34,795 bases of DNA. Source: Clostridium thermobutyricum (GTDB lineage: Bacteria; Bacillota; Clostridia; Ch29). The notes beneath the pieces were generated by a model. The model did not search any database, was not told the DNA's origin, and saw nothing but the letters and a program-made list of their open reading frames with translations. The stretch spans positions 1-34,795 of the forward strand of contig JAENYD010000024.1 in NCBI GenBank assembly GCA_016842005.1, in the 5' to 3' direction. The stretch's first letter is position 1, and each line of letters opens with the position of its first letter. Shown here piece after piece: positions 1,957 to 28,341 of the stretch. The position numbers and the translations under genes are program-made.

Positions 1957-2110
1957 TATTTCACCTCTCAGCAGCTTTCGGATTTTCAGTTGCGTTTCTC
2001 CGGTTATATGGGGGAGTTTCCGGTGCATTCCATCCTCCAGGCCATTTGTCTGACAGTATTGCATCCCGGATGGAAAAAGGAAGTTTACTTTGCCTCAGAT
2101 ATAATGGGGA

Positions 2111-2644
2111 TCAGGGGTCTTTTTTTCCCAAAGGAGGAGCCAGGCTGCTTTTCTTGTTGCTTTTAATGTATTTGTGCAGGATGCCCGGGATATCGTCAGG
2201 CGTCAGTCTTCCGAATACCTCGTCATTGATGGTTATGACCGGGGCCAGCCCGCAGGCCCCTATACAGCGTGTCACCTCAATGGTGAAGAGTTTGTCCAGG
2301 GATGTTTCACCCACACCGATCTGAAGTTCTTTCTTTACGGCTTCCAGTATCTCCTGGGATCCTTTCACATAACAGGCGGTGCCCATACATACGCTGATGG
2401 TATACTTACCCCTCGGCTCCTGGGAGAAAAGGGAATAAAAGCTCACCACCCCGTTGACTGTTGAGATGGGGATATTCAGCCTGTCCGAAATATATGACTG
2501 TACTTTTACAGGCAGGTATCCGAAGGCTTCCTGGGCCTTCTGCAGTATACGGATGAGCATACCTTCCTGCTCCCTGTATCTGTCGATGATTTTGTCCAGT
2601 TGCCGGTATTTTTCCTTCTCTTCTTCACTGACCCTGATTTCCAT
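2111..2644 (-). CDS. hydC: NuoE-like [2Fe-2S] subunit of the hydrogenase (HydC/HndA type)
   Basis: A 177-aa thioredoxin-like ferredoxin subunit that passes electrons between the flavin subunit and the hydrogenase. The single [2Fe-2S] cluster has ligands in CMGTAC (C-x4-C) and CIGAC (C-x3-C), the NuoE pattern, after the usual helical N-terminal domain (ILQKAQEAFGYLP). The ATG at 2644 is preceded by GGAGG about 10 nt upstream. An in-frame upstream start at 2680 adds 12 residues that look non-native. It is the first gene of the hydC-hydB operon, and its C-terminal tail (KSNKKSSLAPPLGKKDP) is basic and probably disordered. No HydA or maturase is in view, so its partner is inferred from family order only. 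Confidence 0.93.
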   Translation of the reverse strand: MEIRVSEEEKEKYRQLDKIIDRYREQEGMLIRILQKAQEAFGYLPVKVQSYISDRLNIPISTVNGVVSFYSLFSQEPRGKYTISVCMGTACYVKGSQEILEAVKKELQIGVGETSLDKLFTIEVTRCIGACGLAPVITINDEVFGRLTPDDIPGILHKYIKSNKKSSLAPPLGKKDP

Positions 2645-3014
2645 AGGACATGTACCTCCGTATATAAAGTGAAATTTCATTGATTATGTTGCAGGTAAGC
2701 AAGTTCAAATGAGCGCCGCCTTTATTTTGACTTTCAAAAAGTTTTACTGCAGTCCGTTCAATCGGGATATGTGTCCCGCTTCTATTCGTGAATAGTTTTT
2801 CCACCTTTGCAAAAGAAATTCTTTTTCAGACACAAAGATTATTAAAAATCCATGACGATTGCCGGTCGGCCGGTGATTACCGGAGGGCATATGTCCGGAT
2901 GAAACAATAAATCTTTTGTAAAGTTGTCCCCCTGCCCGGAATATATTAGATTATGGAACATATTTCTTATCCGGGAGTCTAACAGGTATAAAGAACGGTG
3001 ATGAGGTGATGGAA
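2645..3014. other. Intergenic region upstream of hydC and the SLH protein gene
   Basis: This 370-bp divergent spacer has no plausible gene. It holds two short dyads: CGGGA-N6-TCCCG (2763-2778) and CTATTC-GT-GAATAG (2782-2795). They sit where a regulator of either gene could bind. Neither resembles the Rex consensus TTGTTAA-N4-TTAACAA expected for redox control of hydrogenase genes. A weak minus-strand TTGAAC-N16-TAATCA lies just upstream of hydC. No convincing promoter for the plus-strand gene was found. Confidence 0.4.
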
Positions 3015-7370: not shown

Positions 7371-7487
7371 CTGCTCCCGCTGATATTCTGCCCTTGCGCT
7401 CGGAAGATAATCGGCGCGTCCCCGGATAATCAGGGATTGAATATTCCGGTGAAATATGTTAAGCTGGAAACAGAATTGAATATTCAC

Positions 7488-7577
7488 TGGGGGAGCTGGA
7501 AAGGCCGGCTGAGAAAAAGACCCTATGAAGTCTTTAACCCTTTACCTGATCTGGATAATGCCAGCGTAGGGAAGTGA
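7488..7577 (+). promoter_or_regulatory. TPP riboswitch (THI element) controlling thiW-thiD
   Basis: The conserved thiamine pyrophosphate aptamer sequences are present in order: GGGGGAGC, GGCTGAGA, a variable P3 arm, ACCTGATCTGGATAAT and CCAGCGTAGGGAAGTGA. One departure from the usual sequence is GATAATGCCAGC in place of GATAATACCAGC. An intrinsic terminator starts 20 nt downstream, so ligand binding should stop transcription before thiW. Confidence 0.96.
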
Positions 7578-7596
7578 TGATTTTCAAGTGCTAACC

Positions 7597-21720: not shown

Positions 21721-21780
21721 CGGTGCTAAGGTACTGCTGGCGGGGCAAAAACTAAAAATAAAAGAAGGACGGTGGAACTG

Positions 21781-22668
21781 ATGAAATCTGTAAGGACCGA
21801 TTATCACGTACATCCGGACTATTCCATAGATGCCTTTCCGGTAAAAATAAGGGATTATTGTCACCGGGCGTTGGAATTAGGACTTATGGAGATTTGTTTC
21901 ACAACCCATTTAGAACTTGATCCCGTACGACGGGAAATGGATAATTTCGTTTTTTTTAAGGGGAAAAAGCATCCGGTTCACGACCTGACCTGGCTAGACG
22001 CTTATTTTAACGAAATTACCCGGGCACAGGAAGAATTTGAGGCGGAAGGTCTCAAAGTAAAGGCCGGCATTGAGGTCGGGTACGACCGGGGGCTGGAAAA
22101 AGATGTTGAAAAAATCGTTGAGGAGTATCCCTTTGATTTCGTACTGGGAGCTATCCACTGCCTTAACCACATTGCTATTTCTTCTATGAAAGAAAGCCCA
22201 CGCTATTTCAGTTCCAAAAGTTGCGCCGAAATACGCGACGATTACTTTACAACCTTGGAAGAGGCAGTGAAAAGCGGGCTTTTTGATTGCATAGCTCATG
22301 TTGATCTTTACCGACGGTATGGCATTAAACATTACGGTCCTGAGATCTTAACCATTCACCGGGGTGCTATAGAACCGGTTTTTAAAGAAATGGCGCGCAA
22401 GGGAATGGGTCTGGAAATCAATACCTCAAGCTGCCGCCGGGGATTGAAGGAATTTCACCCTTCTCCAGAAATAATTTCTTTGGCGGTGGAAGCAGGTATC
22501 AAAATTTTTACTATTGGCTCTGACGCACATTCCCTTGACGACTTGGGGGACCACATCCAAGATGCTCTGGATCTTCTGGAAGATTTTAATCTCTGCAACC
22601 ATGTTTTCACCCGGAGGTGCGCCGTTCCGTGCCTTTACAAAGCTATCGGTCAGAAAGCCGACCGATAG
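21781..22668 (+). CDS. PHP-domain phosphatase (histidinol-phosphatase-like), candidate inositol-phosphate phosphatase
   Basis: A 295-aa PHP-family metal-dependent phosphoesterase. Metal-site motifs are DYHVHPDYS (HxH), TTHLELD, EVGYD, GAIHCLNH, IAHVDLYRRY and GSDAHS, all intact. Family members hydrolyse histidinol phosphate and other small phosphates. No histidine genes lie nearby; it is convergent with the ino1-IPCT/DIPPS operon with only 18 bp between stops. That context makes inositol-1-phosphate or di-myo-inositol-phosphate-phosphate possible substrates, which is inference. The ATG at 21781 follows GGTGGA; a GTG at 21772 is an alternative. It has its own promoter and is not part of the convergent transcript. 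Confidence 0.82.
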   Translation: MKSVRTDYHVHPDYSIDAFPVKIRDYCHRALELGLMEICFTTHLELDPVRREMDNFVFFKGKKHPVHDLTWLDAYFNEITRAQEEFEAEGLKVKAGIEVGYDRGLEKDVEKIVEEYPFDFVLGAIHCLNHIAISSMKESPRYFSSKSCAEIRDDYFTTLEEAVKSGLFDCIAHVDLYRRYGIKHYGPEILTIHRGAIEPVFKEMARKGMGLEINTSSCRRGLKEFHPSPEIISLAVEAGIKIFTIGSDAHSLDDLGDHIQDALDLLEDFNLCNHVFTRRCAVPCLYKAIGQKADR

Positions 22669-22686: not shown

Positions 22687-24018
22687 TCACATTGATTTAC
22701 GGGCATTATAGAGGCGAATCAAGGCCTGAAGATGAGTAAGGATGGCAAGCAAGATTAGGGTAGCCGGAATCAGGTTTAAAATACCGCCCAGCATAATGAT
22801 AAACAGGCGACCGTCGCGATTAGCGGGGAGGTAACGAAGTATACCGTCATAGAGTTCAGATATAAAGGGTTGACCGGTCAGGGCGTGAAATTTTTCCTTG
22901 AGCAGCATGGACATAGGCATTCCAGCGAGAGTGACGGCGCAGGCTAGCAGCGCCAGGGAGCTCTCTGTCTTAGAACACCAGGCATATGCCATGCCAAGAA
23001 TAATGAAAAAATCTGCGTAACGGTCGAGCATGGCATCGAAAAGTCCTCCATAATTGCTTTTTAAAAACTTCAGGCGGGCAATTTCCCCGTCAACCCCGTC
23101 CAAGATAGAACAGAACTGCGCCAACAGTCCACCATAAAGAGGATACACCATAGCAAAAAGAACAGCCGAAGCCGCTGAAATCAAAAAAGAAAGGAAAGTA
23201 ATTTGATTCGGTGTTATCCTGGTCCGGGCGAAAAGTTTTGTTATCCGAAGGGAAATCCTGCGGTTTAAAATGCGGGAAACAAGACCATCTTTAGAGGGCA
23301 CCAGGGACTGAAGGAGAATTTTTTCAGCGTGGCGGTAGCTGGGAAGGTCATCCACATCAATCCAGGTACCCTTAACGAAATGCAATTTTACTTTGTGCCG
23401 GCTGGACATTATATTTACTGCATCGGTGAGGGTGTAGTGGCATTGAGAAATTGCCTCGGAAAGGGCTTCCAAAAGCGCTCCGGTGCCAATGAAAAGACCG
23501 CAGTCTACGGTGTTAAAATCACACAGGTCTTTGCCCAGTTTTACGGCGAAATCCTGCTCAGCTTTTACCTTGGTACATTCCTCCAGGTCATACACGCTTT
23601 TCAGACGTCGGTCAGCAGCCAGCAAAAGTTCATCTTCTTTAATATTTGATGCCTCGGCAACAAAAGCTTTGAGGACATCAAGTTCGAAGACGTGGTCCGA
23701 CATTATTAAAATAAATTTTTCTCCCTGACGGTAATCTTTTTGGAATGTGTAGGCAGACACGCCGTTTCCCAGTTCCCAGTCTGGGTTATGTAAATAGGTA
23801 ATGTTTATTCCAAATTTGCTTCCGTTTCCAAGATGGTCTCGAATTTCACTGGAATAACAGCCGGTTATAATTACAAAGTCATTGATGCCGCATTCCCGCA
23901 AAGCAAGAATGCTTCGCTCAATTAAAGAAAGGCCCAATAAGCGCACCAGAACCTTGGGAGTGCTAAAATGTGGTTTTAGCCTCTTCCCCTCACCGGCAGC
24001 AAGGATAACGGCCCGCAT
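22687..24018 (-). CDS. Bifunctional CTP:inositol-1-phosphate cytidylyltransferase / CDP-inositol phosphotransferase (IPCT-DIPPS type)
   Basis: A 443-aa fusion. Residues 1-235 are a nucleotidyltransferase: LAAGEGKRLKP then PKVLVRL, SDHVFE with the metal Asp at 108, DCGLFIG and a C-terminal WIDVDDLPSYRHAE. Residues about 245-443 are a membrane CDP-alcohol phosphotransferase with the full catalytic set: D307, D310-G311, A314-R315, G324, D328 and D332, within several hydrophobic helices. This architecture makes CDP-inositol and then either di-myo-inositol phosphate phosphate, as in Archaeoglobus and Thermotoga, or inositol lipid from diacylglycerol, as reported for Rhodothermus. The ATG at 24018 shares one base with the Ino1 stop (TAATG), so the genes are tightly coupled. 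The second-step acceptor cannot be decided from sequence alone. Confidence 0.88.
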   Translation of the reverse strand: MRAVILAAGEGKRLKPHFSTPKVLVRLLGLSLIERSILALRECGINDFVIITGCYSSEIRDHLGNGSKFGINITYLHNPDWELGNGVSAYTFQKDYRQGEKFILIMSDHVFELDVLKAFVAEASNIKEDELLLAADRRLKSVYDLEECTKVKAEQDFAVKLGKDLCDFNTVDCGLFIGTGALLEALSEAISQCHYTLTDAVNIMSSRHKVKLHFVKGTWIDVDDLPSYRHAEKILLQSLVPSKDGLVSRILNRRISLRITKLFARTRITPNQITFLSFLISAASAVLFAMVYPLYGGLLAQFCSILDGVDGEIARLKFLKSNYGGLFDAMLDRYADFFIILGMAYAWCSKTESSLALLACAVTLAGMPMSMLLKEKFHALTGQPFISELYDGILRYLPANRDGRLFIIMLGGILNLIPATLILLAILTHLQALIRLYNARKSM

Positions 24019-25109
24019 TAACGTTCTCTCCTGCCGGCAATAAATTCTTCTACCATCTTTTTGGCTTCGGTATCGGTGTATTGAATCGGCGGCGATTTCA
24101 TAGTAAAAGCCGAAATGGAAGTCAAGATACCACCGATTTTGCGATCTAGAGCCAGCTTCATGCATCTGATGGCGTCTATGATAACACCACCGCTGTTGGG
24201 AGAGTCTTCTACGGAAAGCTTTACATCCAATGTTAGTGGTACATTTCCGAAACCCCTTCCCTCCATACGAATATGACAAATTTTATTGTCATTCAACCAG
24301 GGAATATAATCACTGGGACCGATGTGAATGTTATCATCAGTCAGGGAAACTTTCAGCTCTGCCTGTACAGACTGGGTTTTTGATTTTTTCTTGGACTTGA
24401 GCCTGCTACGATTAAGCATGTTTAAGAAGTCCGTATTTCCCCCGAAATTCACCTGGTAAGTACGGTCAAGAATTACACCACGGTTTTCAAATAGTTTGGT
24501 CAGAGTTCGATGGATAATGGTGGCTCCCACCTGGCTTTTTACATCATCCCCTATAATGGGAATATTTTTTTTACGGAATGTTTCACTCCATTCCTCGTCG
24601 GAAGCGATAAAAACCGGCATAGCATTAATAAATCCTACGTTGGCTTCCAGGCACGCTTCGGCGTAGAACCTGGCCGCTTTTTCGGACCCCACCGGCAGGT
24701 AATTTATAAGGATCTCTGCACCGCTTTCCTTGAGGACTCTGACCACATCACAGGGTTCCTGATCAGCAACAACAAAGGTTTTGTTCTCGTCATAATCGAC
24801 CATGTGTTCAGATATGCCATCCAGAACGTGACCCATTTGTACCTCAACGGGATAGTCTGGCAGATCCTTGTAAAAGATGGTGGTACAGTTGGGCGTTGCA
24901 AAAATTGCATCCTTAAGTCCTTTACCTACCTTGCGCTTGTCCACGTCAAACGCAGCAACTACATTGATGTCTCCAGGTTTATATTCGTTAAGGTCATAAT
25001 TCATAAGCCCGATTGTATTTTTCGGCGAGTTTTTGTACATTTCGATTCCCTGGAGCAAAGCACTCGCACAGTTGCCTACACCTACAATAGCTATGTTTAT
25101 TTTACCCAT
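24018..25109 (-). CDS. ino1: myo-Inositol-1-phosphate synthase
   Basis: A 363-aa NAD-dependent enzyme that converts glucose-6-phosphate to inositol-1-phosphate. Visible family features are the N-terminal Rossmann motif IAIVGVGNCASALLQG, ADQEPCDVV, GDDVKSQVGAT, the active-site NFGGNTDFLNM and the lysine-rich SRLKSKKKSKTQ segment. The short prokaryotic form (about 360 aa) matches actinobacterial, archaeal and Thermotoga enzymes. GGAGGAGG lies 11 nt upstream of ATG 25109. It is the first gene of the ino1-IPCT/DIPPS operon, whose promoter carries a CIRCE site. Myo-inositol synthesis is uncommon in Clostridia, which supports acquisition by transfer. Confidence 0.93.
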   Translation of the reverse strand: MGKINIAIVGVGNCASALLQGIEMYKNSPKNTIGLMNYDLNEYKPGDINVVAAFDVDKRKVGKGLKDAIFATPNCTTIFYKDLPDYPVEVQMGHVLDGISEHMVDYDENKTFVVADQEPCDVVRVLKESGAEILINYLPVGSEKAARFYAEACLEANVGFINAMPVFIASDEEWSETFRKKNIPIIGDDVKSQVGATIIHRTLTKLFENRGVILDRTYQVNFGGNTDFLNMLNRSRLKSKKKSKTQSVQAELKVSLTDDNIHIGPSDYIPWLNDNKICHIRMEGRGFGNVPLTLDVKLSVEDSPNSGGVIIDAIRCMKLALDRKIGGILTSISAFTMKSPPIQYTDTEAKKMVEEFIAGRRER

Positions 25110-25193
25110 TTTAATTTTTACCTCCTCCTTTTTTGATTCTATTTGCCAGCTTTTTTAATGAACACTCTTCTATATAAAGGCATCCCCTCCTTG

Positions 25194-25226
25194 AAACAAA
25201 AAAACTCCCGATGTGCAACCGGGAGT
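25194..25226 (-). terminator. Leader terminator upstream of ino1
   Basis: On the minus strand ACTCCCG (25226-25220), a 9-nt loop, CGGGAGT (25210-25204), then T7 and a further GTTT. This classic intrinsic terminator lies between promoter and ino1, so ino1 expression requires readthrough or antitermination. Confidence 0.8.
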
Positions 25227-25433
25227 GTCGTTTACTTCAGCTGTTCCAGAACAACTGGTACAACGCTCACAGAAACTATTTGATATGTTTTCGTGTTCTC
25301 TTGAGCAGGAAAGATACACTCCCTTAGAATGCTTATCTTCATAAGAGGTTTTTTTCAACTTGCCGGTTATTAAAACCGGGAAAGAGATATGTGCAGTTTT
25401 AGATAGTCTTTTAGGTATTTATCAAGCATATTG

Positions 25434-25460
25434 TTAGCACTCAACAAGCATGAGTGCTGC
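25434..25460. promoter_or_regulatory. CIRCE element (HrcA operator)
   Basis: TTAGCACTC (25434-25442), exactly 9 bp, GAGTGCTGC (25452-25460). The left arm is a perfect match to the CIRCE consensus TTAGCACTC-N9-GAGTGCTAA and the right arm matches in 7 of 9. It lies 12-38 bp downstream of the predicted start of the minus-strand ino1 promoter, the usual position for HrcA repression. Confidence 0.85.
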
Positions 25461-25478
25461 TGTCGATAACTGTATACA

Positions 25479-25507
25479 ATTATATAAGCAAAATAATCCA
25501 ATTTCAA
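25479..25507 (-). promoter_or_regulatory. Sigma-A promoter of the ino1 operon
   Basis: On the minus strand TTGAAA (25507-25502), an exact 17-bp spacer and a perfect TATAAT (25484-25479). The adjacent CIRCE element indicates HrcA control. Confidence 0.85.
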
Positions 25508-27302: not shown

Positions 27303-27535
27303 GAAAAATAAAAGGCCTCCCGTTTTAAGGACGAGAGGGCCCGTGGTACCACCTTAATTTGCATTCCGTACGAATGCCTCGGACCATGTTAACGGATGGT
27401 GTCCGCCAGGGGCTGCCTGAAACTCCGGAGTGTAATTCACAATTCCACGTACTGCAGTCCTTTCACCGGCCGGGCTGCTCTCTGAATAGTAACCGCGGAT
27501 TGCTACTGTGCTCTTTCATTGTTTTTACTGATTTA
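27303..27535 (-). promoter_or_regulatory. T-box leader controlling tyrS
   Basis: Read on the minus strand, the leader shows the conserved AAAGAGCACAG and AGAGAGC start of stem I, the GGTGAAA element and a specifier region GAATTACACTC with UAC, a tyrosine codon. The T-box sequence AGGTGGTACCACGGG follows and then a terminator ending in TTTTATTTTT. Uncharged tRNA-Tyr should stabilise the antiterminator and switch tyrS on. Confidence 0.93.
27305..27342 (-). terminator. T-box terminator before tyrS
   Basis: GGCCC-TCTCGT pairs imperfectly with ACGGGAGGCC on the minus strand, followed by TTTTATTTTT. It competes with the T-box antiterminator. Confidence 0.8.
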
Positions 27536-28202: not shown

Positions 28203-28227
28203 ATAGGTAGAGAACTGAATAGTTAAC

Positions 28228-28322
28228 CGCTAGGGGGGCCGGAAAGCCCGGCTGAGATAAAAGCGCGATGAAGCTTTTTACCCTTGAACCTGATCTGGAT
28301 AATACCAGCGTAGGGAAGTGAA
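28228..28322 (+). promoter_or_regulatory. TPP riboswitch controlling thiE-thiM-thiC
   Basis: A consensus-quality aptamer: GGGGGGCC, GGCTGAGAT, ACCCTTGAACCTGATCTGG and ATAATACCAGCGTAGGGAA. The terminator at 28342 completes the expression platform. Confidence 0.97.
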
Positions 28323-28341
28323 TGTCAAATGCTACTATTTG

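Follow-up and report, generated by a model that had tools for sequence, protein, structure and literature searches.

A putative three-helix transcription attenuator behind a degenerate CIRCE promoter in the leader of a di-myo-inositol-phosphate operon

A DIP operon preceded by a structured leader

The window, by which we mean the whole analysed stretch of 34,795 nucleotides from Clostridium thermobutyricum, carries two adjacent genes that, judged by their sequences, make up an operon of the di-myo-inositol-phosphate (DIP) pathway (Table 1). The product of ino1, the first gene under the control discussed here, also matches NCBIfam TIGR03450 at 449 bits, which is under that model's cut-off. The product of the second gene, a bifunctional IPCT/DIPPS enzyme, gives a full-length match to NF041135 (E=3.2e-86, residues 88-528) that lies below the curated cut-off of 580 bits, and also matches PDB 4mnd (E=2.4e-54); this gene starts near 24018, and the mechanical ORF extends to 24279. 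A PHP-domain phosphatase-like gene (21772-22668) is convergent with the operon. DIP is a thermoprotectant and compatible solute best known from hyperthermophiles; the genes for its synthesis (22687-25109 in the window, and also in L173) are found here in genomes of mesophilic-looking rRNA and tRNA composition. Elsewhere in the window, Rfam models place a T-box leader upstream of tyrS (27324-27528, minus strand) and two TPP riboswitches (7479-7589 and 28222-28333, plus strand), one of them upstream of a thiamine-phosphate synthase gene.

Table 1. Features of the DIP operon and its leader (window coordinates)
Feature	Position	Strand	Remarks
Promoter	25479..25507	-	-35 TTGAAA (25507-25502), 17-nt spacer, -10 TATAAT (25484-25479); 11/12 consensus match
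Degenerate CIRCE (predicted HrcA operator)	25434..25460	-	GCAGCACTC-N9-GAGTGCTAA; 2 mismatches, both in the upstream half
P1, predicted anti-antiterminator hairpin	25310..25340	-	AAGATAAGCATTCTAAGGGAGTGTATCTT; would sequester strand 2; weak in the window (-9.2 kcal/mol)
Strand 2, 5' strand of the antiterminator	25316..25323	-	GGGAGTGT; conserved in 16 leaders
Linker hairpin P2	25265..25306	-	GCTCA...TGAGC; predicted fold
Linker hairpin P3	25238..25257	-	CAGTTGTT-CTGG-AACAGCTG; conserved only in the window, L132, L141 and L142
Strand 3, common to antiterminator and terminator	25221..25228	-	ACACTCCC
Intrinsic terminator	25197..25226	-	Stem 25226-25204 (9 bp, 5 G-C), T7 tract 25203-25197; terminator scan
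Shine-Dalgarno sequence of ino1	25120..25129	-	AGGAGGAGGT
ino1, myo-inositol-1-phosphate synthase	24018..25109	-	First gene under control; ATG at 25109; Pfam PF01658, E=1.5e-35
Bifunctional inositol-1-phosphate cytidylyltransferase/di-myo-inositol-phosphate-phosphate synthase	22687..24018	-	Second gene of the operon

Between the CIRCE-like site and the terminator lie ~200 nt of leader. A terminator scan would find 0.6 such sites in the region by chance. The first-pass annotation had located this terminator and an alternative partner for its 5' arm, at coordinates that prove exact to the base: strand 3 is perfectly complementary to strand 2, and the 2:3 pairing encloses 87 nt which, as had been proposed, form hairpins of their own in the predicted fold. 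How unusual is such a match? When the 180 nt ahead of the terminator are shuffled with their dinucleotides preserved, an equal or better duplex arises in 5 of 2000 cases; of the genome's real terminators, 5 of 60 have a duplex as stable upstream of them, and 22 of 75 others have an uninterrupted upstream match of at least 8 bp (G-U allowed). Judged from the window alone, the complementarity is weak evidence; it gains its significance from the conservation of the strands across leaders, with covariation (see below).

Past the terminator by 10-20 nt, a Shine-Dalgarno-like stretch (AAGGAGGTG/AAGGAGGGG) is followed by a few codons and a stop (25191-25172, minus strand); the stretch recurs in L132, L141, L161, L164, L165, L169 and L175, and could be a mini-ORF or a remnant.

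Homologous leaders share the layout and covary

An Ino1 search yielded eleven relatives of at least 79% identity besides the window. The attenuator is intact in nine of them (L132, L142, L134, L175, L003, L083, L084, L135 and L144); L141 (94% Ino1 identity) has kept the terminator and lost the 2:3 pairing, and L002 (89%) has a promoter and a CIRCE directly before the gene, with no attenuator leader. Two covariance models extended the set. The earlier one, R1, was made from three leaders; it picked up L134 (2e-8) and L144 (1.6e-4) but not the window's own leader. R2, which comprises P1 and the terminator and was built from eight leaders, does recover it, though it was partly trained on that leader. 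Run without gene information over 398 genomes of the phylum, R2 matched 14, 10 of them at ino1, adding six new leaders (L159, L161, L164, L165, L166 and L169) that lie directly upstream of ino1, each verified by tblastn; when 13 genomes were searched one by one, strong matches fell only at ino1. This brings the intact ino1 attenuator leaders to 16 including the window, the 15 others coming from uncultured Bacillota-like genomes, and the shared order is promoter, CIRCE-like site, P1, antiterminator strand, terminator. Weak R2 matches away from ino1 (L163, L167, L168 and L170) were set aside, having no ino1 nearby; among the three read in detail, those in L163 and L168 adjoin tRNA-like sequence, and what lies downstream of the L167 match appears by eye to be the far strand of a gene.

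Twelve of the 16 leaders are of a short-linker type with four strands: strand 1, CUUCUGRUU; strand 2, UYGGGAGUG; strand 3, ACACUYCC; and strand 4, the complement of strand 3, followed by U. Their pairings are 1:2 (P1, the anti-antiterminator), 2:3 (the antiterminator) and 3:4 (the terminator). P1, a third element that the first-pass annotation overlooked and that would sequester the antiterminator strand in most homologues, is strong and conserved across these 12 leaders; its lower extensions are A/U-rich and lineage-specific (CAGAAAA/UUUUCUG in L134, AAAAA/UUUUU in L084, long stems in L003 and L166), and its loop varies from a few to >20 nt. The linker mostly measures ~24-38 nt where measured, and ~50 nt in L175. 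Two leaders are more elaborate: in L161, GGGAGT hairpins with T-tracts follow one another three times, and in L165 a weak terminator precedes a stronger one by ~200 nt, each of them complementary to strand 2. A palindrome, ATTCGTTTTGAAA...TTTCAAAACGAAT (GATCCGTTTTGAAATTAATTTCAAAACGGATC in L134), is conserved in L003, L084, L134 and L159, ~45 nt before the ino1 ATG and past the terminator; it may be a DNA operator or an RNA hairpin.

Across the 12-leader alignment, which left out L135 (same layout, P1 differently built), the 2:3 helix is 94.7% paired vs 39-54% in slid controls, its covariation is 0.284 vs 0.206 in shuffles (reached in 0 of 500), and five double-change cells are seen vs 1.3 expected; strands 1:2 and 3:4 are 97.7% paired, their covariation likewise reached in 0 of 500, and these shuffled and slid controls do not remove the shared ancestry of the leaders. 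In a 15-leader alignment that includes the window and L135, the 2:3 helix is 92.5% paired. From leader to leader, strand 2 changes in step with strand 4, only 44 of 10000 permutations giving as high a value; this would be expected if both have to pair with strand 3. Strands 2, 3 and 4 are altered together in L003 and in L164/L169. The covariation that the first-pass annotation had proposed to look for in homologous ino1 leaders is thus present (2:3 helix, 0/500 shuffles), and its mutually exclusive antiterminator and terminator on the inositol-phosphate (DIP) operon are supported by the covarying helices. Comparison establishes that there are three such predicted helices, that they come in this order and exclude one another, and that they go with ino1; from this we infer that termination occurs and is regulated and, with less confidence, that the signal acts directly on the helices and not via a metabolite aptamer.

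The window itself belongs, with L132, L141 and L142, to a sub-type in which the linker is ~75-90 nt long and carries a conserved hairpin just before strand 3, its motif as RNA being CAGUUGUU...AAYRGCUG; P2 shows one compensated pair (GCUCA/UGAGC in the window vs GAUCA/UGAUC in L132). In these leaders the antiterminator is much the more stable helix, in the window at -33 vs -9 kcal/mol for P1 (all energies in this work are ViennaRNA equilibrium estimates); P1 is weak in both the window and L132, and the window's P1 is degraded in L132, its 96% relative. The antiterminator/terminator pair of the window is well supported, and its anti-antiterminator partly supported; the full three-helix logic is seen in the short-linker majority and holds for the window only partly. 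A protein-coding reading of the sub-type linker was rejected: the changes are not at third positions, and the relatives have in-frame stops or indels.

A degenerate CIRCE-like operator at the same promoter

The TTGAAA...TATAAT block is also found upstream of most homologous ino1 leaders, and a CIRCE-like site accompanies all of them except L142. Set against the consensus TTAGCACTC-N9-GAGTGCTAA, the window's site has correct spacing and a perfect downstream half; the same genome, which encodes HrcA, has perfect CIRCEs at groESL and at hrcA-grpE. The relatives repeat the pattern: their ino1 sites usually have a perfect downstream half and typically 3 mismatches in the left half, the alterations falling mostly in its last three bases (TTAGCAGCA and similar, in L003, L084, L161, L164, L166 and others). 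The lost bases would spell CACTC, the core of strand 3; in the RNA, such a stretch would be a rival of strand 3 for pairing with strand 2. The upstream half stays closer to the consensus in L141, in which the antiterminator is lost, in L002, which has no attenuator, and in the window, in which P1 is weak. It is possible that the ino1 operator has been compromised to spare the RNA switch, or that its repression is deliberately weak.

The two elements are separable because L002 has a CIRCE without an attenuator and L142 an attenuator without a CIRCE, which fits the earlier suggestion of two independent controls on the operon. L009, a distant member of the Bacillota whose Ino1 is 66% identical, has a PHP-ino1 gene pair preceded by a near-perfect CIRCE (~2000-3000); this is apparently a separate case of a CIRCE at an inositol operon.

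How the leader might work

The leader is very likely a real transcription attenuator, to judge from its conserved and covarying strands, and we consider it probable that it acts in cis on the DIP operon, behind the degenerate HrcA/CIRCE promoter, through three competing helices. P1 (strands 1:2) would fold first and hold strand 2. As long as P1 stays closed, strands 3:4 would form the terminator and RNA polymerase would stop before ino1; if strand 2 is free as strand 3 emerges, the 2:3 antiterminator would form instead and ino1 would be transcribed. The trigger could be a protein, an RNA chaperone or an RNA acting in trans to open strand 1, or heat that melts P1, and the attenuator would then add a second, stress-dependent gate to that of HrcA. 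In the sub-type of the window, with its weak P1, the antiterminator would probably win by default, and the conserved hairpin of the long linker may carry the input. That the operon goes without regulation by the leader is very unlikely.

What does the leader sense? No Rfam family matches it at gathering or relaxed thresholds, in a search that does find the T-box and the two TPP riboswitches of the window; the sole relaxed match, atoC-like, is below the gathering score, on the other strand and outside the leader. There is no RF00230 match and no T-box sequence in the leader, the window's T-box being the one at tyrS, so the absence of a T-box or known aptamer consensus that had been remarked from the sequence is borne out, and with neither an Rfam match nor a shared aptamer the accompanying reading as a metabolite riboswitch or T-box finds no support. 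No aptamer-like sequence is shared, the linker being AU-rich and unconserved in the 12 short-linker leaders, and no ORF with a ribosome-binding site consistently overlaps P1, most leaders having none at all. In the short-linker leaders little beyond strands 1-4 is conserved, so that a shared aptamer has nowhere to lie. The helices themselves are therefore the probable target of the signal, be it temperature, the kinetics of RNA polymerase, or a chaperone or RNA-binding protein.

Weighing the alternatives

The layout could be fortuitous in either of two ways. The upstream match could be mere chance complementarity to an ordinary terminator, as the frequency of comparable matches and duplexes at other terminators of this genome (22/75 and 5/60) would allow; however, the same strands recur with covariation in 16 ino1 leaders, and a model blind to genes found them, so that the comparative data largely refute this reading and leave it extremely unlikely. 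P1 and the terminator could instead be similar terminators in tandem, without a switch, the 2:3 pairing being a by-product of the likeness between strands 2 and 4. Several leaders do have a terminator-like U-run after P1, and the triple hairpins of L161 and the second terminator of L165 are in keeping with such an arrangement; yet independent terminators need neither the covariation of strands 2 and 3 nor the tracking of strand 4 by strand 2, P1 uses conserved G-U wobbles where the antiterminator has Watson-Crick pairs, and, with these elements placed between ino1 and the promoter of the operon itself, termination would silence the operon unless relieved. We consider tandem terminators improbable. 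If the switch is genuine, a ribosome on a short ORF overlapping strand 1 could select between P1 and the antiterminator, a scheme that the formal likeness to trp-type 1:2, 2:3, 3:4 attenuators invites, and the window has a frame of 36 codons that begins with an ATG at ~25342-25340 and stops just short of the terminator. That frame lacks a good ribosome-binding site, in the relatives the corresponding linker stretch is either interrupted by an in-frame stop (L141) or frame-shifted with respect to the window, and, as noted, the leaders offer no consistent ORF over P1; leader-peptide control has only a slight chance of being correct.

A metabolite riboswitch, with the 2-3 linker or P1 as an aptamer for inositol, an inositol phosphate, CDP-inositol or DIP whose binding would decide between antiterminator and terminator, would suit a biosynthetic operon preceded by helices that exclude each other, and a ~20-36 nt linker hairpin (CAGTTGTTC.TGTAATGGCTGAAGT) is kept in L132, L141 and L142 while the remaining linker diverges. 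That motif, however, is confined to four leaders, one of which (L141) has no antiterminator; the linker is short, AU-rich and unconserved in 12 of the 16, the P1 loop is variable and the leader belongs to no Rfam family, all of which makes a riboswitch quite unlikely. A factor acting in trans, be it a CsrA-like, cold-shock-type or PyrR-like protein or a small RNA, could bind P1 or strand 1 and either free strand 2 or stabilise P1. The near-invariance of strands 1 and 2, perhaps beyond what pairing needs, speaks for it, as does the lack of a leader ORF or aptamer to serve as sensor; but four mutually locked strands would also give near-invariance, the operon shows no candidate regulator gene, and the loop of P1 is unconserved. 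We consider a factor of this kind possible, though less likely than not.

Heat sensed by the RNA itself is the other possible trigger. In most short-linker leaders, the modelled balance between P1 and the antiterminator shifts toward the antiterminator on heating, crossing zero at ~43 to 70 C in about eight leaders, with most crossovers >50 C; in the sub-type of the window the trend runs the opposite way. Such a shift is expected of any long AU-rich hairpin set against a shorter helix, so it does not itself show heat sensing; its direction fits the short-linker leaders, but its magnitude does not discriminate. What makes the trend suggestive nonetheless is the role of DIP as a thermoprotectant, together with the heat induction of its synthase in Pyrococcus (PMC10746257). 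By GC content (53% in the 16S rRNA of one relative, 60% in the genome's own tRNAs), the genome looks mesophilic, and for this reason we consider direct heat sensing rather unlikely. Still more doubtful is a sensor free of both protein and aptamer, in which an AU/GU-rich P1 would melt and the antiterminator form, so that the operon would be gated twice by heat, by HrcA/CIRCE and by the leader RNA.

Relation to known systems and significance

In the PyrR attenuators of Bacillus, an anti-antiterminator, an antiterminator and a terminator compete without a leader peptide. The TRAP attenuators of Bacillus rely on such helix competition as well (PMC3913778). The ino1 leaders share this competition with both and differ from them in having no conserved binding loop, no (G/U)AG repeats and no regulator gene seen in the operon. 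Attenuators of the trp/his/ilv type, for which a three-hairpin model has been described for ilvBNC (PMC11857589), have the same 1:2, 2:3 and 3:4 pairings between promoter and first gene, with the terminator last; by contrast, the ino1 leader has no conserved leader peptide or regulatory codons, and its target is an operon for a compatible solute, read from a CIRCE-type promoter. With riboswitches and T-box leaders it has in common an expression platform of exchanging antiterminator and terminator, but not an aptamer or T-box consensus. RNA thermometers usually mask a ribosome-binding site. The ino1 leader resembles them in having an AU/GU-rich helix that, by the energy model, would open on heating, and in serving a stress-protectant operon; unlike them, it would act on termination. 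In Pyrococcus furiosus, PF1616, the ino1 of the DIP pathway, is induced by heat shock (log2FC 4.0), and the organism has a dedicated heat-shock repressor, Phr (PMC10746257); here, in contrast, an RNA attenuator would come on top of CIRCE, the bacterial operator for HrcA.

In the libraries searched, we found no described family or paper for the ino1 leader RNA and no paper linking CIRCE to DIP synthesis; the titles and abstracts of the literature on HrcA, CIRCE and inositol point to nothing on this operon. To our knowledge, and within these searches, the attenuator is undescribed.

The leader would join a heat-shock DNA operator to an RNA attenuator on one thermoprotectant operon, and the consistent divergence of the left CIRCE half suggests how an operator in DNA and a switch in RNA may constrain one another when they overlap within a single transcript. 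At ~100 nt in most relatives, it is small enough for a direct in vitro test of its input. Should the helices themselves sense temperature, they would constitute a transcription-terminating thermosensor, of which we know of few or no natural examples; and if the heat-sensor reading is true, bacteria that look mesophilic would gate twice by heat the synthesis of a solute best known from hyperthermophiles.
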